Source: Acidobacteria bacterium Mor1 (GTDB taxonomy: Bacteria > Acidobacteriota > Polarisedimenticolia > Polarisedimenticolales > Polarisedimenticolaceae). Taken from it: DNA of 64,000 nt. Positions 1-12,079 of this stretch are shown piece by piece. The first letter of the stretch is position 1. Every line of letters begins with the position of its first letter. Both the position numbers and the translations under genes were made by a program. Below the pieces are notes generated by a model that saw nothing but the letters and a program-made list of their open reading frames with translations, did no database searches and was not told the origin of the DNA. The stretch lies in NCBI GenBank assembly GCA_001664505.1, contig CP011806.1:718020-782019 (forward strand), in the 5' to 3' direction.

Positions 1-1439
1 TCGCGCCGCCGCGAGACTCTGGCAGAGCGCCTTGCGGCCGGGGCGGAAAGCCTCGGCGGGCAGATCGTCGACGATCCGGACCTGCTCGACGAGATCGCCG
101 ACCTGGCCGAATGGCCGGCGGTGGTGGCCGGCGGCTTCGAAGCGGATTTCCTGGCGCTTCCCAAGGAGATCCTCGTCACCACCCTGCGCTATCACCAGAA
201 GTGCTTCTCGGTGCAGGACGGGGCGGGCAAGCTGCTGCCCGGGTTTCTGGCCGTGGCCAACACCGACCGCGACCCCTCGGGGCACATTCGCCGGGGCAAC
301 GAGTGGGTAGTCAGCGGGCGTCTGGAGGATGCCCGCTTCTTCTGGGCCGAAGATCGCAAGCGTTCCCTGGAGGAGCATGGACGGCGGCTGGAGCAGGTCG
401 TGTTCCACGCCAAGATCGGCACCTACGCCGAGAAAGCCGAGCGGGTCTCCGGTTTGGCCGCGGCCCTGGCCGGGGCGGTCGGACTGGACAAGGCTGCCGC
501 CGTGATCTGTGGCAGGGCTGCCCGGTTGTGCAAGAACGACCTGGTCACCGGGACCGTCGGCGAGTTTCCCGAACTCCAGGGGATCGTCGGCGGACTGCTG
601 CTCCGCGAAGAAGGGGAGCCCGAGTCGCTCTGTTCCGCGGTCTACGAGCACTACCGCCCGCAAGGACCCGAGGACGACCTGCCGGCCAGCGCCGAGGGGG
701 CGGTCGTCGCCATCGCCGATAAGCTCGACACCTCGGTGCGGCTGGTCGCCGCCGGTGAGGTGCCCAGCGGCTCTCGCGATCCCTTCGGACTACGCCGAGC
801 GACCAGCGGCATCTACCGTACCGCCATCGAGCGGGGCTGGCCGATCAGCCTGACCGATCTCAACCGGCTCGCCGACGGCAACGACGCGACCCTGTCCTTC
901 CTTGCCGAGCGGCTACGCAGCTACCTCCGCGAGAGCGGGTGGGCGGTCAACGAGGTGCGGGCGGTGCTGCCCGATGACGGAGATGAAGCGACCGGCTGCA
1001 CCCTTCCCGATATCTCCGAACGGCTGCGGGCGATCCAGACCGTTCGCGCTCGGGAAGACTTCGCCCGCCTCGTGGAACTGACCAAGCGGGTGGACAACAT
1101 CCTGGTCAAGAGCGCCGGCGAGGCCAGTCCGCCGGCGGAGCGGCCGCCGGCGGACTGGAAAGAGCCTGACGAGACCGCGCAGGCGCTTGCCGCAGCCCTC
1201 GAGCGCGGCGAGGCCGAACTCGGCGCGCTGATCGCGAAGCGGGACTACGCCGGGGTGATCGACGGCCTGGCGGCCTTCGCGGCACCGGTGGACCTGTTCT
1301 TCGAGAAGGTACTGGTCAACGATCCCGACGATCCCGCTTCATCCAGCGGCCGCAAGGCGATGCTGGGGAGGCTGCGAAGCCTCTTGATCCGATGCTTCGA
1401 TATCCGGGAACTCGCGGGCCAGGCGGAAAGGAGAGACTG

Positions 1440-1440
<1 letters not shown>
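1..1440 (+). CDS. glyS: Glycine--tRNA ligase beta subunit, 3' part
   Basis: Beta subunit of the two-subunit bacterial glycyl-tRNA synthetase, which charges tRNA-Gly in the cytoplasm. The reading frame is open from base 1, so the N-terminus lies outside the window; 479 codons remain, against roughly 690 for the full family protein. Family-typical stretches include LPKEILVTTLRYHQKCF and the later DPFGLRRATSGIYRTAIE region. The C-terminal part (KRVDNILVKSAGE, then FFEKVLVNDPD) is the helical anticodon-binding region, with the usual FFDxVxVMxED-like sequence slightly changed. The stop overlaps the start of ppdK by one base (TGATG), so the two are probably co-transcribed. The alpha subunit glyQ is expected just upstream. 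Confidence 0.96.
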
Positions 1441-4175
<2,735 letters not shown>

Positions 4176-4336: not shown

Positions 4337-5332
4337 GTGGCGAAAACCGCCAAGCGCAAGGTCGCGGCAAAGAAGAAGGCCGCCAAGAAAACCACCAAGA
4401 AAGCCGCCCCCAAGAAGACGGTAAAGAAGAAGGCTGCGTCCAAGAAGGCCACCAAGAAGGCAGCGCCCAAGAAGGCCGCCGCCAAGAAGGTAGCCAAGAA
4501 GAAAGTAGCCAAGAAGAAGGCGGCCCCGAAGAAGGCGGCCAAGAAGGTCGCGAAGAAGGCGCCTGCGAAAAAAGCCGCCGCCAAGAAAGCGACTGCAAAG
4601 GTAGCCAAGAAGGCCGCCCCCAAGAAGGTCGACAAGAAGGCCACCAAGAAGGTCGTCAAGAAGACGGCGGCCAAGGCCGCCCCGGCCCCGAAGAATCCGG
4701 CCCCGAAGAAGAAGGCGACGCCTGCTTCGACCAAACCGGCTCCGAAAAAAACTGCAACCAAGTCGAAGGCGACCGAACCGTCGGCCAAGAAGCCGAAGGC
4801 GAAGAAGCCCGTCAAGAGAAGGCCGCTGACATCCCAGATGAAGCACTACGAGGAGTTGCTGCTCCAGAAACAGCGGGAGCTGACCCAGGCGTATCACGCC
4901 TCCAAGGGTGACACCCGAGCACGGCTCGACGACGGAACCGAGGATTACATCGACTACGCGGTCAGTTCCTACGCGAGGGAGTTCCTGCTCTCGCTGAGCG
5001 AGCTCGATCGCGAACAACTCCGCCTGGTCGACGACGCCCTCAAGCGTTTGCGGCGAGGGGACTTCGGCATTTGCCGCCCCTGCGGGGAACCGATTGCCGA
5101 GAAGCGTCTCGAAGTCGCTCCCTGGGCACCGTACTGTATACAGTGTCAATCCCTCGACGAGCAGGGCCTGTTGAGCGATTCGCCGGCGGCACGCCAGTCC
5201 GACGACGATGACGATATCGACGACGACTCGACAGAGGCAGATGCGGAGGACGAGGGGGACGAGGACTCCTACGCCGATGCCGACGATGACATCGAGGACG
5301 ACGACTCGCTGGACGATGACGACGACGACTGA
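4337..5332 (+). CDS. Histone H1-like / DksA-TraR zinc finger protein with poly-Asp tail
   Basis: A three-part 331-residue protein. Residues 1 to about 165 are almost only Lys, Ala, Pro and Thr in AAKK/APKK units, like the C-terminal arm of eukaryotic H1 or bacterial H1-like proteins, and should bind nucleic acid. Residues about 168-275 are a DksA/TraR domain: a helical hairpin carrying DYIDYA, which fits the DxxDxA tip motif of DksA, then a C4 zinc finger (CRPCGEP...YCIQC). Residues about 280-331 are an Asp/Glu tail. DksA acts in the RNA polymerase secondary channel with ppGpp; action of this protein on polymerase is inferred from the motif. The start is GTG 4337, with GGAGGT seven bases upstream. 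The repetitive AAG codons give strong strand bias. It could instead be mainly a nucleoid protein. Confidence 0.85.
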   Translation: MAKTAKRKVAAKKKAAKKTTKKAAPKKTVKKKAASKKATKKAAPKKAAAKKVAKKKVAKKKAAPKKAAKKVAKKAPAKKAAAKKATAKVAKKAAPKKVDKKATKKVVKKTAAKAAPAPKNPAPKKKATPASTKPAPKKTATKSKATEPSAKKPKAKKPVKRRPLTSQMKHYEELLLQKQRELTQAYHASKGDTRARLDDGTEDYIDYAVSSYAREFLLSLSELDREQLRLVDDALKRLRRGDFGICRPCGEPIAEKRLEVAPWAPYCIQCQSLDEQGLLSDSPAARQSDDDDDIDDDSTEADAEDEGDEDSYADADDDIEDDDSLDDDDDD

Positions 5333-5393: not shown

Positions 5394-8300
5394 ATGAGTA
5401 CGCCCCCGACGCCACAGGCGCCAAAGCGGCCCAAAGGGCCCGGAGCAAAACGCCCCCGCACCGGGCGGGCGCGGCGGTTGTTGCGTCGGCTGCTCTGGGG
5501 GGTCGCCGCGCTCCTGGTCGTTTGCCTTACCTCCCTGTTTCTGCTCAGAGACCGCCTCGACGGGTGGGTCCGGGACCGCATCCAGCACGAGATCGAGCAG
5601 GCGCTGCCCGACGCCCGGGTCTCCCTGGACCGGGTCGACATCGGATTCTACGGTCCACGGCTGGACTTTCATGGTTTCTCGCTGGAGTTGGACGGCCTGC
5701 CTGACCGGATCTCTTTCGAGAAGGCCAGGATCCGGCCCAAGCTGAGCGGTTTTGGCGGCCTGCTGGCGCGGCGCATCCACCTCTCCGAGGTGACGATCCA
5801 ACGACCGGACGTCGTACTCACGGCCGAGGGCCTCGCGCGTCTGGGAGCGGGACCCTCCGAGGAGGGGAGCGAGCCCGCCGAGTTTCCCGATCTCAGGATT
5901 CGCCGCTTTGACGTGAGCCAGGGGGCCTTCACCTATGAAGACAGGAGCATCCCGCTCACCCTGGAACTGACGGACCTGGACCTGGATGCCCGGGGTCGGG
6001 TTCTGGCCGACGGCGGGCGGGGTGGCGTGCGCCTCTCGGCGACGGTGCTCCACAGCCCTATCGAGCGCCCGCTCCCGCTGAAGATCCGGGCCGAGCTCAA
6101 CTACAGCGGCCAGCGCCTCCAGCTCAGCGGCCTCCACGCCGAGGGGGACGGGGTGCGGCTGGACGGCAACGCCGTACTGTTCCTCAGCGACCCGTTCCGG
6201 GTGCGTGGCGAAACCCAGGTGCAGGCGGACCTTGCGACCATCGCTCCCGTACTGGATGAAGCCTGGCGGGATCTGCGGGGACGGGTCGAGGGCCCGTTGA
6301 GTTGGTCCTATGCCGATGGTGAAGGCTTCCGGCTCGACGGAGAGCTGGTCGGTCAGCGGGTTCGCTACGGCGACCTCAGCGCCTCACGCCTCTCGACCCG
6401 TCTGGAAATCACACCCGGCCGCCTGCGTTTCGGCGAACTGGATCTCGACGCCTGGGACGGCTCCGTTCGGGGAGAACTGGAGCTGGCTCTCGACGGCCCG
6501 ATCCGCTTCGAGGCGGACGTCGAGGGCCGGGGGCTCGATGCCCACAGCCTGGGGAGCCTGGCCGGCCTGCCGTTGCCCTTCGCCGCCCGGGCCGATGCCG
6601 TAGCCCGGCTGTCCGGCCTCGTCGACCGGAGGAGCACCTGGCGGGGTGGAGGCAGCGCGACCTTCCAGGGGGACCCGGACGATGCGCAGCCGATCCCACT
6701 GGACGGCGCTGGCGATTTCACCATCGTCGACGGAGTGCTGAGCGCCTCCGCGCCGGCGGTGCAGGCGGCGGGTGCTGCTCTCAGCTTCGGTCTCGAGGCG
6801 GATCTCGGCGGTGACGGCCGAGGCTGGGTCGAACTGGACGGCGAGACCAGCAACGCAGCCTCGACCCACCGGGCGACCCTGGCGGTACTCGAATCCCTGG
6901 ATGTGGAAATCCCCGCCGACCTTCGCCGGCCGATCACCGGCCGCGGCCCGCTGGACGTGCGGGTGGGCTTCGGCGGCGAGCCGGACGCCGGCGGTGGCCG
7001 GGTCGACCTCGGTCTCGAGTTCACGGCCGGCAGCCTGGACGGAACCGCCTTCGACCGGCTCTCACTGGATCTGGCCCTGGCCGGAGATCAACTCAAGATC
7101 GAGTCACTCGACGCCGAGGCGCCGGACTGGCAGCTCCGGGGCGCGCTCTCCTACGACCTCTCCAACGATACGATCGAGCGGCTCGAAGGGGAGGCCGAGG
7201 AGGTCCAGCTTCCGGTCCTGCTGGGATTGATCCCCGAGGCGCCCGCGGTCGAGGGCACCCTCAGCGGCTCGTTGCTGCTTGCGGGCCCGTTGAACCGTCT
7301 GACCGGCGAGGGCCGGGTGGCGATTTCCGAGCTGCGCTGGGAGGGGGAGTACCTCGAACGCCTCGAGTCTCCGGTGCGGGTGCTCGATGGCGCCTGGACT
7401 CTCCCTGAGCTCACCGCCGCCGGACCTGCGATCCGCCTGGGCGGACAGGTGGCCTTCGCTCCCGACGGAGACCGGATCGAGATCGAGTTACGGGACACGT
7501 CGCTGCAGCTCGACGCCCTGAGCGCCCTCCAGGGTGCGGGGGTCGAAGGAACGTTGGATCTCGACGGCCGCCTGCAATTATCGGGGGGGAGCTCCACGGG
7601 AGAGATCGGCGTCGAGGCGCGCGGCCTGATCGCCTCGGGGATCGATCTCGGCTCCGCCAGCGGCGTCATCCGCCCGGAGAGCGAGCGGGTCGTGGCCGAG
7701 CTCAACGCACCCCGCCGCAGCGCCCGCGCCCAGGCCACCCTCGGCCTGGGAAGCGACCTGCCCCTGGAGGTCCAGGTGCAGCTGGACGGCAGCGACTTCG
7801 ATCTGATCGACCAGGATGGCTACGGCGGAGCCTGGGTCCGGCTCGACGGCGAACTGCGCTACGCCGCGGCACTCGGAGAGACCCGCCCGGCGGACCTGGC
7901 CGGCGTGTTCAGCGGTATCGAGCTCCACCTCGGCAGCCGTGTCTTGCGCAGCGGCGAACCCTGCCAGGCCCACCTGGACGGCGACCGCCTCTCGGTGGGT
8001 CCGATGCGGCTCGAGGGGGACGGGACCGCCCTGGAGCTGGCGCTGCTCTACGAGTTCGGTAGCGCGGCCCTCGATGGTTACGGCCGTGGAAACCTCGACC
8101 TCGGGGCGGCGGCGGCGCTGGTTCCCGAGCTGCGCGCCGCAGGTCCCGTCGATGTGGATCTGCGCCTGAGCGGAACCGGAGAGGCGCCGAGACTCGACGG
8201 GTCCCTATCGCTCGAAGGGGGCAGGCTGCGGCTCCTCGGCTTCCCGCACACCCTCGAGCAAACCAGCGCCCGCATCGAGTTCGGAGGGGACACCGCGCGC

Positions 8301-11300
8301 CTCGAGCGGCTGGAAGGCATCCTCGGCAGCGGTGAAGTCACCGGGAGCGGCGAGGCGCGCCTGGAGGGCCTCGCCCTGGGTGACCACCGTTTCGAGCTCA
8401 GCGCCCGCTCGCTGCGGATCCGCTTCCCCGACGAGTTTCGCGGCATCTATGACGGCGAGTTGGTCCTGGGCGGCGACGCCGATCAGTCGACCCTGTCGGG
8501 AACCGTCAACGTGCTGCGAGGGATCTACAGCCAGGACTTCGAACTCTTCTCGCTCCTCGGGGTCGGAACCCGGGAGGTCGCGGCCAGCGATGAAGGATTG
8601 CTGCCCGACGTGGGCCTCGATATCCGGCTGGTGGCGCGAGACGGCATCTGGATGAAGAACGATCTGGCCGACGTCGAGTCCCGCTTCGACCTGCGGCTCG
8701 GCGGCGACCTGAACCGGCCCGAGCTGTCAGGCCGCCTGACCCTGCTCGAGGGTGGGGAGCTGCGTTTCCGGGATGTCGACTACACCATCACCTCGGGCAG
8801 TCTCGACTTCGTCGAACTGGACAGCTGGCTGCCCGAGATCGAGATGCGCGCAGAGACGACCGTCCGCGAATACGCCGTCTTCCTGCGCATCTCCGGGACC
8901 GTCGATCAGTTCGAGTACGAGTTGACCAGCTCACCGGATCTTTCTCAGCAGGACATCATCGCGCTGCTGACCACCGGAAAGACCATGCAGGAGTTGAGCG
9001 CCGAGTCGGGAGGTTCCGGCTTCACCGGCGATCTCGCCGCCAACTACTTCGCCGGTGCGCTGACCGGCACGTTCAGCAAACAGCTGCAGCGCCTGCTTGC
9101 CGTCGAGCGCCTGCGCATCGACCCGCTGCTGGCCCAGGAAGACGCCGAGCCGACCGCCCGGGTCACCATCGGAAAGGAGGTCGCCGACGACCTGTTCCTG
9201 ATCTATTCCACCGACATCGGTGCCGAGGAACGCCAGCTCTATCAGGTGGAGTGGCAGGCCTCGCGCAAGATGCGCGTGATCGCCGAGCGGGACGTCACCG
9301 GCGCGCTGGGAGGGGACGTGCGCTTCCGGGAGCGCTTCTGGTGGAAGCGCCCTGCCTCCGCACCCCGAGCAAAGAAGAAGTCCGGCGCGTCCGAAGCCGG
9401 CGCCGACGGCAAAGAGACGGTGCAGGTCGCCTCGGTACGGTTCGAGGGCATCGGCGACGATGCGGCCGCCGAGCTGCGCAAGAAGCTGTCGATCGCCCGC
9501 GGCACCCCTTACCGCCGCTCGGTGGCCATCGAAGGCGCCGAGGCAATCCGGCGCTACTACGCCGGGCAGGCGCGTATCGAGGCGGAGGTCGGCTGGCGGA
9601 CCGAGGGGCCGGAGGACCGGCCGACGGTGGTCTACAGCATCGTGCCCGGGCGGGTGACCGAGGTCGTGCTGGCCGGCATCGACCGCAAGCATGAGAAGCG
9701 CATCCGCGAACTGCTCGAGGATCACTGGGTCGAATCGATCATCGGCGAGGACCTGCTCGACGATGCGGCGGAGATCATCCGGGACTACTTCCAGGAGCGC
9801 GGCTTCTACACCGTCGACGTCTCGGTCGACGAGACCCTGGACGACGGCCTGCATCGGGTCGAGTTCGTGATCGATACCGGCAAGACCGTGCGCATCCGGT
9901 CGGTCGAGATCGAGGGCGCCGAGGCCATCGACGAGGACCGGCTGCGCCGCCAGTTCCTTACCGGCCGCCGCACCCTGTTGCAGCGCTCGGCGATCCTGCC
10001 CCGGGTGTTGCGGGAGGACCTGGCCGCGCTGCGCACCCTGTACCGCAACGAGGGCTTTCTCGAGGTCCTGATCGACCAGCCGCGGGTGCGGCTCTCGGCG
10101 GAAGCGGACCGGGCCGACGTGACCATCCGCATCGAGGAAGGACCGCGGTTCTACATCAGGACCCTCGAGTTCGAGAACCCCGACGGGGAGCTGCCCTACA
10201 GCCGCGCAGAGCTTCTCGAGTGGTCCGGACTGGCGACCGGGAAGGTCTACTCTCCGCCGGAACTGCTCGAGGCCGAGAGCCGCCTACGCAGCGCTCTCGA
10301 CAGCCGCGGCTATCCGACTGCCCGGGCACGGGGCCGGGTCGAACTGGGCGAGGCGGAGGCGCGCATTCGCTTCACCATCCGCCCCGGACAACAGCTGCGC
10401 ATCCAGGAAGTCGCCCTGCGCGGCAACGACCTGACCAAGGACCGGATCATCAAGGGGGAACTCGAGCTCGAAGAGGGGGATCTGATTTCCCGGGACACCT
10501 TGCTGCGCAACCAACACCGTCTCTATCGCCTGGGGATCTTCCGCAGCGTCGACGTGGGCTACGAACCGGTCGACGGGGGAGAGCCGGGTCAACAGCGGGT
10601 GGTCGTCGACATCGAGGAGGCCCAGCCGCTGAGCCTGACCGTCGGTGCCGGTTTCGACAGCGAAGCCGGCCTGCGGGGCAATCTGGCCCTCAGTCACGAC
10701 AACATCGGCGGATGGGATCGCACCGCCGGTTTCCAGGCCAGCGTCAGTGACCTGCAGCGCCGCGGACAGGTCACCTTCGGCGAGCCCAGGCTGTTCGGCT
10801 TCGATCTGCCGACCGTCGTCAGTCTCGGCCAATCGGATACCGAGGAGAACGACTTCACCGTCAAACGCCGCTCGGTCGGTGTCCGCATCGACCACCGGCT
10901 GTCGCCACGCTGGAACGCCTTCGGCCGCTACGCCTTCCAGCGAGTCGACCTACGAGACGTCGTCGATCCGCTCCGCGTGCAGGAAGAGAAGCTCGAAGAT
11001 GTGGTGCTCGGGGACGTGAGTTACGGTCTGCTGCTCGACAGCCGGGACGATCCGTTCCTGCCGACCCAGGGACAGTACGCCACCATGGAGGTGCAGCTCT
11101 TCGCCGAACCCTTCGGCTCGGAGCAGGAGTTCCTCAAGGGCTTCTTCCAGAACACCTACACCCACACCTTCGGCAACGGGCACACCTTCGCCACCGCGAT
11201 CCGCGTCGGCTTCGCCCGGCGGCTCGGGGCCACCACCCGGGTGCCGCTCTCCGAGCGTTTCTTCGCCGGGGGAGATTCCACCCTGCGCGGCTTCGACCGC

Positions 11301-11600
11301 GATACCGTCGGTCCGCGGATCGGCGACGTCGCCGCCGGCGGCGAGGGGTTGCTGCTGCTCAACCAGGAGTGGCGCGTTCCGCTGTGGGGCCGCCTCAAGG
11401 GCGTGCTGTTCTACGACGCCGGCAACGTGTTCGACCGAGCAGGAGATATCGACCCCTTCGACCTGCGGCACGTGCTGGGCCTGGGGGTGCGTCTCGAGAC
11501 GCCGATCGGACCGCTGCGCCTCGAATACGGCAGCAAGCTCGACCGGGTAGGCGACGAGTCCCGGGGAGAGCTCTTCATCGCCATCGGATCGGCGTTCTAG
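5394..11600 (+). CDS. TamB-like / five-POTRA Omp85 (BamA/TamA) fusion protein
   Basis: A 2068-residue envelope protein. A basic N-terminus leads into one membrane anchor (about residues 32-51), then a long AsmA/TamB-type beta-rich region with repeated LDG..GxL patterns. The conserved TamB C-terminal (DUF490) region spans about 930-1318, including RGIYSQDFELF, GGELRFRDVDYTI and SQQDIIALLTTGKTM. After a short Lys/Ser/Ala linker (about 1322-1340) come five POTRA-like units (about 1343-1418, 1419-1497, 1498-1585, 1586-1666 and 1667-1745), then a 16-strand-type barrel with the L6 motif STLRGFD and a terminal Phe (AIGSAF). TamB normally spans the periplasm and works with a separate TamA or BamA; here both are one polypeptide. 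Five POTRAs is the BamA number (TamA has three). I saw no frameshift or stop at the junction. Confidence 0.9.
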   Translation: MSTPPTPQAPKRPKGPGAKRPRTGRARRLLRRLLWGVAALLVVCLTSLFLLRDRLDGWVRDRIQHEIEQALPDARVSLDRVDIGFYGPRLDFHGFSLELDGLPDRISFEKARIRPKLSGFGGLLARRIHLSEVTIQRPDVVLTAEGLARLGAGPSEEGSEPAEFPDLRIRRFDVSQGAFTYEDRSIPLTLELTDLDLDARGRVLADGGRGGVRLSATVLHSPIERPLPLKIRAELNYSGQRLQLSGLHAEGDGVRLDGNAVLFLSDPFRVRGETQVQADLATIAPVLDEAWRDLRGRVEGPLSWSYADGEGFRLDGELVGQRVRYGDLSASRLSTRLEITPGRLRFGELDLDAWDGSVRGELELALDGPIRFEADVEGRGLDAHSLGSLAGLPLPFAARADAVARLSGLVDRRSTWRGGGSATFQGDPDDAQPIPLDGAGDFTIVDGVLSASAPAVQAAGAALSFGLEADLGGDGRGWVELDGETSNAASTHRATLAVLESLDVEIPADLRRPITGRGPLDVRVGFGGEPDAGGGRVDLGLEFTAGSLDGTAFDRLSLDLALAGDQLKIESLDAEAPDWQLRGALSYDLSNDTIERLEGEAEEVQLPVLLGLIPEAPAVEGTLSGSLLLAGPLNRLTGEGRVAISELRWEGEYLERLESPVRVLDGAWTLPELTAAGPAIRLGGQVAFAPDGDRIEIELRDTSLQLDALSALQGAGVEGTLDLDGRLQLSGGSSTGEIGVEARGLIASGIDLGSASGVIRPESERVVAELNAPRRSARAQATLGLGSDLPLEVQVQLDGSDFDLIDQDGYGGAWVRLDGELRYAAALGETRPADLAGVFSGIELHLGSRVLRSGEPCQAHLDGDRLSVGPMRLEGDGTALELALLYEFGSAALDGYGRGNLDLGAAAALVPELRAAGPVDVDLRLSGTGEAPRLDGSLSLEGGRLRLLGFPHTLEQTSARIEFGGDTARLERLEGILGSGEVTGSGEARLEGLALGDHRFELSARSLRIRFPDEFRGIYDGELVLGGDADQSTLSGTVNVLRGIYSQDFELFSLLGVGTREVAASDEGLLPDVGLDIRLVARDGIWMKNDLADVESRFDLRLGGDLNRPELSGRLTLLEGGELRFRDVDYTITSGSLDFVELDSWLPEIEMRAETTVREYAVFLRISGTVDQFEYELTSSPDLSQQDIIALLTTGKTMQELSAESGGSGFTGDLAANYFAGALTGTFSKQLQRLLAVERLRIDPLLAQEDAEPTARVTIGKEVADDLFLIYSTDIGAEERQLYQVEWQASRKMRVIAERDVTGALGGDVRFRERFWWKRPASAPRAKKKSGASEAGADGKETVQVASVRFEGIGDDAAAELRKKLSIARGTPYRRSVAIEGAEAIRRYYAGQARIEAEVGWRTEGPEDRPTVVYSIVPGRVTEVVLAGIDRKHEKRIRELLEDHWVESIIGEDLLDDAAEIIRDYFQERGFYTVDVSVDETLDDGLHRVEFVIDTGKTVRIRSVEIEGAEAIDEDRLRRQFLTGRRTLLQRSAILPRVLREDLAALRTLYRNEGFLEVLIDQPRVRLSAEADRADVTIRIEEGPRFYIRTLEFENPDGELPYSRAELLEWSGLATGKVYSPPELLEAESRLRSALDSRGYPTARARGRVELGEAEARIRFTIRPGQQLRIQEVALRGNDLTKDRIIKGELELEEGDLISRDTLLRNQHRLYRLGIFRSVDVGYEPVDGGEPGQQRVVVDIEEAQPLSLTVGAGFDSEAGLRGNLALSHDNIGGWDRTAGFQASVSDLQRRGQVTFGEPRLFGFDLPTVVSLGQSDTEENDFTVKRRSVGVRIDHRLSPRWNAFGRYAFQRVDLRDVVDPLRVQEEKLEDVVLGDVSYGLLLDSRDDPFLPTQGQYATMEVQLFAEPFGSEQEFLKGFFQNTYTHTFGNGHTFATAIRVGFARRLGATTRVPLSERFFAGGDSTLRGFDRDTVGPRIGDVAAGGEGLLLLNQEWRVPLWGRLKGVLFYDAGNVFDRAGDIDPFDLRHVLGLGVRLETPIGPLRLEYGSKLDRVGDESRGELFIAIGSAF

Positions 11601-11613
11601 TCGCCGGCTCGCC

Positions 11614-11667
11614 CCAGAAAAAGGAGAGCCCGCAGCCGCCGAGGGGGGATTCGACGAAAGCGGGCTC
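11614..11667 (-). terminator. Candidate terminator downstream of the sigma-region-4 gene
   Basis: The inverted repeat gagcccgc (11626-11633) / gcgggctc (11660-11667) has a 26-base loop. On the minus strand the stem is followed by cctttttct. It lies between two convergent genes and fits the end of the minus-strand gene better than the plus-strand one. The long loop lowers confidence. Confidence 0.45.
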
Positions 11668-11719
11668 CAGGGGAGGAAAAAAGGAATCTCAGGATCAGGT
11701 GTTTGTCATGTCCATGCGT

Positions 11720-12079
11720 TTAGACGAGGGAGAAGCGAACCTGCCCTTGGTACTGCTGGAGAATCTCCCGCAGCTTGCGTTTGGCATCGCGCTCCAGTTG
11801 GCGCACCCGCTCGCGGCTCAGGCCGAGGCTCTTGCCGATCTCCTCGAGGGTCAACTCCTTGCCGCCCAGAAGACCGAAACGATTGCGGATGATGTGGCGC
11901 TCGCGCTCATCCAGGGAGACCAACGCCTCACGCACCAGGCTGCGAACTTCCTGGCCGTAGATGCGGTCTTCCTGACTCGCCGTGGATTTGTCTGCGAGCA
12001 GCGCCGAGAGGCGACACCCTTCATCGTGATCCACGAACTCATCGATCGAACGCTCTTTCATCAAAAGCGGAATGAGCAT
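11720..12079 (-). CDS. Stand-alone sigma-70 region 4 (plus part of region 3) protein
   Basis: 119 residues resembling only the C-terminal third of an RpoD/RpoH-type sigma factor. SLDERERHIIRNRFGL and LTLEEIGKSLGLSRERVRQ are the region 4.1/4.2 helix-turn-helix that reads a -35 element. No region 2 (core binding, -10 recognition) is present, and the sequence before the ATG does not continue a sigma-like frame. The start is well supported: on the minus strand GGAGGT precedes the ATG by four bases. It may be a -35 reader that needs a partner, a regulator binding core or anti-sigma factors, or a degraded sigma gene that kept a good ribosome site. The gene is monocistronic, facing away from mutL. 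Confidence 0.8.
   Translation of the reverse strand: MLIPLLMKERSIDEFVDHDEGCRLSALLADKSTASQEDRIYGQEVRSLVREALVSLDERERHIIRNRFGLLGGKELTLEEIGKSLGLSRERVRQLERDAKRKLREILQQYQGQVRFSLV

Follow-up and report, generated by a model that had tools for sequence, protein, structure and literature searches.

In Escherichia coli, the TAM (translocation and assembly module) is made of two proteins in a 1:1 ratio (structures 9xdc/9xdd, PMC12800296). TamB has an anchor, a groove and six terminal strands, and its Omp85 partner TamA has three POTRAs and its own signal. In the cryo-EM structures, the last strand of TamB (residues 1251–1259) pairs with strand 1 of the TamA barrel, the POTRAs touch TamB, and a lipid-like density is seen in the TamB groove (PMC12800296). 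Overexpression of BAM offset the loss of TamAB for the insertion of Ag43 in E. coli, but not for phospholipid transport (PMC12800296).

Other bacteria have different partners for TamB. In Borrelia, a five-POTRA Omp85, the cell's own BamA, works with TamB in a hybrid BAM–TAM (PMC11361582, PMC13382580), and in a model of this pair the TamB strands complete the BamA barrel (PMC13382580). In Bacteroidota, TamB has a dedicated Omp85 paralog, TamL, which is a separate lipoprotein (PMC12045153). In Acidobacteria, Heinz et al. (2015) described a second BamA, which groups with TamA in phylogeny and occurs together with TamB (PMC4494059). Omp85 barrels with extra N-terminal domains exist, such as patatin-Omp85 (PlpD) and WD40-Omp85; the accessible sections of the survey that lists them describe no TamB and no inner-membrane anchor on an Omp85 (PMC4104836).

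The window analysed here is a stretch of 64,000 nucleotides from the complete genome (5.985 Mb) of Acidobacteria bacterium Mor1. Its sequence places both TAM halves, TamB and its cognate Omp85, in cis on one predicted chain. Like the E. coli TAM, the fusion has a TamB anchor, a groove, six terminal strands and an Omp85 partner in a 1:1 ratio, but it is one chain and has five POTRAs. It shares a five-POTRA Omp85 with Borrelia, where the proteins are separate and the partner is not an additional Omp85 as it is here, and a dedicated paralog with Bacteroidota, where TamL is not fused. The Acidobacteria pair of Heinz et al., from the same phylum and the same gene families, appears to be the split counterpart of this system: the genes are separate, in the order BamA–TamB, and no fusion is mentioned, whereas the window shows a fused gene in the order TamB–Omp85. 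The first-pass annotation knew of no characterised example, and we likewise found no report of a TamB–Omp85 fusion in the open-access literature, although a subscription paper or a domain-database entry may exist.

Anatomy of the fused gene

The gene lies at 5394–11600 (+) and is an open frame from ATG to stop, encoding 2068 residues (approximately 225 kDa). Pfam and AlphaFold2 confirmed the initial reading of an anchor, a TamB region, a linker, five POTRAs and a barrel with LRGF and a terminal Phe in this single frame. The GC3 was 0.81–0.92 throughout, with no step at the junction. The structure was modelled in two overlapping pieces. In the model of residues 1–1150 (pLDDT 82), an anchor helix at residues 33–70 preceded a run of strands with no long interruption. 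The model of residues 869–2068 (mean pLDDT 84) showed the last part of the groove, then helices, the six terminal strands, the linker, five POTRAs and the barrel. Since the pTM values were modest (0.56 for residues 869–2068 and 0.47 for the other piece), the placement of the domains and the docking at the barrel seam are predictions that fall short of being established.

The N-terminal helix (5490–5603), with a maximum Kyte–Doolittle value of 2.9 over 12 residues, is probably a signal-anchor of the uncleaved type. The β-taco groove, comprising residues 74–1180 and about 66 strands, extends over positions 5613–8933. Its strand residues alternate in hydrophobicity (2.66 compared with 1.51 ± 0.14 in shuffled sequences, with none of 1000 shuffles reaching the observed value), as a lipid groove would require. 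Foldseek matched the groove to LPD-3, ApoB100, LptD and TamB (9xdc/9xdd), and from these matches the fold appears to resemble that of bridge-like lipid carriers and of TamAB. The terminal domain of TamB (8946–9338) is made of helices and then six strands ending at residue 1315. The Pfam TamB domain, PF04357, matched residues 978–1315 (E 6e-38, 131.5 bits for a cut-off of 22.4). Together with this domain, the fusion has the predicted anchor and continuous β-taco of a TamB, as well as the C-terminal strand mimic, which is internal here.

The groove does not run directly into POTRA1, a point initially proposed for checking, as the terminal domain (residues approximately 1185–1315) and a hydrophilic, predicted disordered linker (residues 1316–1346, positions 9339–9431, pLDDT about 36–54 over most of its length) lie between them. 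The five POTRAs (9432–10619) correspond to residues 1347–1417, 1421–1494, 1500–1581, 1587–1663 and 1669–1742, as seen in the AlphaFold2 model and in the VIA-align alignment to BamA 24–808, and each is modelled as a β-α-α-β-β unit. PF07244 (POTRA) matched four stretches, the best being residues 1499–1583. The 16-strand barrel (10629–11597), with LRGF in loop 6 and a terminal Phe, was recognised by PF01103 (Omp85; residues 1770–2066, E 4e-43), by AlphaFold2 and by structural matches to TamA and BamA.

The junction

Residue F1315 of the fusion aligns with the final residue of E. coli TamB, F1259. Split TamBs also stop at this very column, where the linker begins. The fusion is thus a complete TamB followed by a linker and a complete POTRA–Omp85. 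Strand 6 of TamB is kept, LGGDVRFRERF in the fusion being aligned with ALDLLYQFEF in E. coli, where this strand pairs with strand 1 of TamA.

No clear signal-peptide-like stretch was seen in the linkers of 59 non-redundant fusions, as judged by the 12-residue Kyte–Doolittle maximum. This maximum was 0.03 in the window's fusion and 1.98 in the highest of the 59; nearly all the separate Omp85s had values of at least 1.9 ahead of their POTRAs, the exceptions being two fragment-like sequences. An Omp85 begun inside the fusion gene would consequently have no export signal.

A proposed single-chain TAM

The fusion is the only TamB found in its own genome. No other large bridge protein was found there, the sole AsmA/YhdP-like match being a weak frame of 747 aa, and no match to an autotransporter domain. 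LptD is present. With the groove matches, the lack of an autotransporter domain and this single TamB without another large bridge, lipid transfer is favoured as the main job of the fusion.

We propose that the fusion probably works as a single-chain TAM, in which lipids would cross from the inner to the outer membrane on a fixed bridge ending in an Omp85 port. In this model, the N-terminal helix would remain in the inner membrane and the β-taco would convey lipid acyl chains through the periplasm in its hydrophobic groove. The Omp85 half, having no signal sequence of its own, would be exported behind TamB, as its tail, and the barrel would presumably be inserted by the separate BamA of the genome while tethered to the inner membrane. 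The terminal strands of TamB would dock at the lateral gate, the open seam of the barrel on their own chain. By analogy with E. coli, the pairing strand should exit on the periplasmic side, and as the 31-residue linker could reach approximately 100 Å to POTRA1, pairing in cis is sterically plausible. The flexible linker would allow the five POTRAs and the barrel to fold around the end of TamB, so that lipids, and possibly some barrel proteins, would be delivered into the outer membrane at the seam. Because the same chain has an anchor for the inner membrane and a barrel for the outer one, the protein should span the envelope at a 1:1 stoichiometry; the span and the fixed pairing put forward in the first-pass annotation are supported as an expectation. 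Several observations argue against a lipid bridge. The genome encodes two MCE (MlaD) proteins, which offer an alternative lipid route, a 2024 review is cautious on the role of TamB in lipid transport (PMC11014939), and TamL of Flavobacterium was reported as an unlikely lipid transporter (PMC12045153).

A stronger form of the model is a tentative possibility. Strand 6 of TamB would be a permanent part of the barrel seam of its own Omp85, forming an intramolecular hybrid barrel, and the Omp85, having lost protein insertion, would be a dedicated lipid exit port in a self-contained bridge that arose several times. The structural matches 7btw_A and 4n75_A, starting at residue 402 of the model, may hint at TamB strands lying at the barrel seam and were not counted as evidence.

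The fusion might instead be mainly an insertase for outer-membrane proteins. It would then resemble a second BAM that has its own periplasmic chaperone groove, and lipids would be secondary. It has five POTRAs and scores above the cut-off of the BamA equivalog TIGR03303 (340.9 bits for a cut-off of 297.15), and the in vitro assembly of OMPs by purified E. coli TAM has been reported (PMC11341756). We consider this reading unlikely, as a canonical BamA is encoded elsewhere in the genome and no autotransporter domain was detected.

Quite unlikely in our opinion is a cut after export, in which the single chain would serve for co-export and 1:1 supply and would then be cleaved in the linker into TamB and a five-POTRA TamA-like protein. 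The basic character of the 31-residue linker, its hydrophilicity and its predicted disorder would suit such a cut, as would its start exactly at the native C-terminus of TamB. Against it, linkers differ in sequence from one relative to another and show no obvious common motif for cleavage, and several fusion lineages converge on one chain.

The single-chain TAM, in which two envelope proteins that are separate elsewhere form one chain here and in many relatives, would make models of outer-membrane delivery directly testable. It offers a one-gene system in which to ask whether the cargo of TAM is lipid, protein or both. There is also a puzzle, namely how BAM inserts a barrel that approximately 1300 residues tether to the inner membrane.

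Lineage of the fused Omp85

The five POTRAs had initially been taken to designate BamA, not TamA, as the fused partner. This part of the proposal agrees with the count of five, compared with three in the definition of TamA, and with the BamA score; the score for TamA was far under the cut-off (NF047950, 128 bits for a cut-off of 625), and that for the TamB of autotransporter TAMs was also under it (NF047952, 53.5 bits for 825). The search for a separate bamA, suggested at the same time, was successful: a canonical BamA is encoded at C1:5.96 Mb, with 461 bits for TIGR03303 and 67 bits for NF047950, thus scoring above the fusion for BamA and below it for TamA. In structural alignments, the Omp85 half was nearly tied between P. 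aeruginosa TamA (POTRA3–5 and barrel; Z 21.7, rmsd 5.5, 526 aligned residues) and BamA (five POTRAs and barrel; Z 20.4).

In a tree of POTRA5 and the barrel, one group (100/100) held the phylum's canonical BamAs, that of the same genome among them. The fused Omp85 grouped with split Omp85s adjacent to TamB, apart from the canonical BamAs (100/100 separation). A second tree agreed; in it, E. coli TamA was a long branch of uncertain placement. On this phylogenetic evidence the fused Omp85 appears to belong to the TamB-partner lineage and would be better named a five-POTRA TamA-equivalent, so the assignment to BamA is not supported. This naming fits the second Acidobacteria BamA branching with TamA (PMC4494059), a description that can now be updated since, in much of the phylum, this protein and TamB form one covalent chain. 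A fusion of TamB with BamA itself, joining the BAM core to the bridge, could be drawn from the five POTRAs and the TIGR03303 match. It is very improbable and largely refuted by the separate BamA, present here and in the fusion-carrying genomes of the class, and by the tree separation.

Two patatin-Omp85 proteins (PlpD-type) are also encoded in the genome, at 7515–10247 (−) of locus L078 and 6762–9098 (−) of locus L080.

Conservation and evolution of the fusion

The survey of fusions covered one phylum, the Acidobacteriota. When genome contigs were searched, a single-sequence query gave no matches and an alignment-based query was needed. One continuous frame over the end of TamB, the POTRAs and the barrel was present in at least about 58 of the 297 near-complete genomes. 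The phylum survey and the ORF analysis of fetched loci together placed the fused form in at least 28 family groups, the latter analysis revealing fusions beyond the approximately 58 of the survey. The architecture was thus recovered in related genomes, as had been asked, and nearly all the near-complete genomes of the window's own class have the same fused frame. The idea that two genes were joined by an error of sequencing, assembly or gene calling, such as a stop or frameshift missed near 9350–9420, has nothing in its favour. It is refuted by full-length fused frames throughout the class and outside it, from dozens of unrelated assemblies, and by an Omp85 half without a separate signal.

In the Terriglobia, Omp85 and TamB are encoded by two distinct genes, Omp85 coming first; in the other split lineages of the phylum, TamB mostly comes first. 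The Zixibacteria locus L110 is split into two overlapping frames. No fusion was found in viral contigs, and plasmids gave only separate BamA-like matches.

A single clade of fusions was rejected both in the POTRA5 and barrel tree (AU test on 41 rows, p 1e-62) and in a tree built independently from the TamB half (AU p 3e-5). On each tree, well-supported branches forced at least three changes between the fused and split states. As the fusions are not monophyletic for either half, joining or splitting occurred several times. These changes may be independent fusions or a fusion followed by fission, and the trees favour neither. The fusion can be regarded as an evolutionary experiment on TAM. If TamB and Omp85 were repeatedly joined at the C-terminus of TamB, then a permanent 1:1 pairing, a full span from inner to outer membrane, and a TamB end close to the POTRAs and barrel of Omp85 would all be compatible with function.

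Some genomes have more than one such system. Two different TamB–Omp85 fusions were seen in G176 and G180 (loci L146/L147 and L149/L150), and other members of the phylum have a fusion alongside a free-standing Omp85 from the same lineage. Besides its fused copy, genome G027 has a second, divergent split TamB/Omp85 pair (contig C102, approximately 65.6–71.1 kb), the TamB match of which contains an in-frame TAG.

Fusions with a single POTRA-like unit were observed at 6204–11771 of locus L066 and 3–3161 of locus L074, so the number of POTRAs varies among fusions. Locus L066 had been a candidate for a POTRA-less fusion, which was rejected when the sequence was read and the one unit seen. Locus L072, a candidate Omp85 with only the terminal domain of TamB, was rejected because of an assembly gap (a run of X).

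The neighbourhood glyS–ppdK–zinc finger–fusion–mutL–slt is conserved within the order and is reduced to glyS–ppdK farther out. The gene upstream of the fusion, at 4337–5332 (+), encodes a DksA/TraR-type zinc-finger protein (PF01258) with a Lys/Ala-rich, histone-H1-like N-terminal tail of approximately 160 residues; its zinc-finger half is kept beside the fusion in many relatives of the class. Directly downstream and antisense, at 11720–12079 (−), lies a 118-aa protein that is mostly a sigma-70 region 4 (PF04545), and this stretch is kept in order-level relatives.
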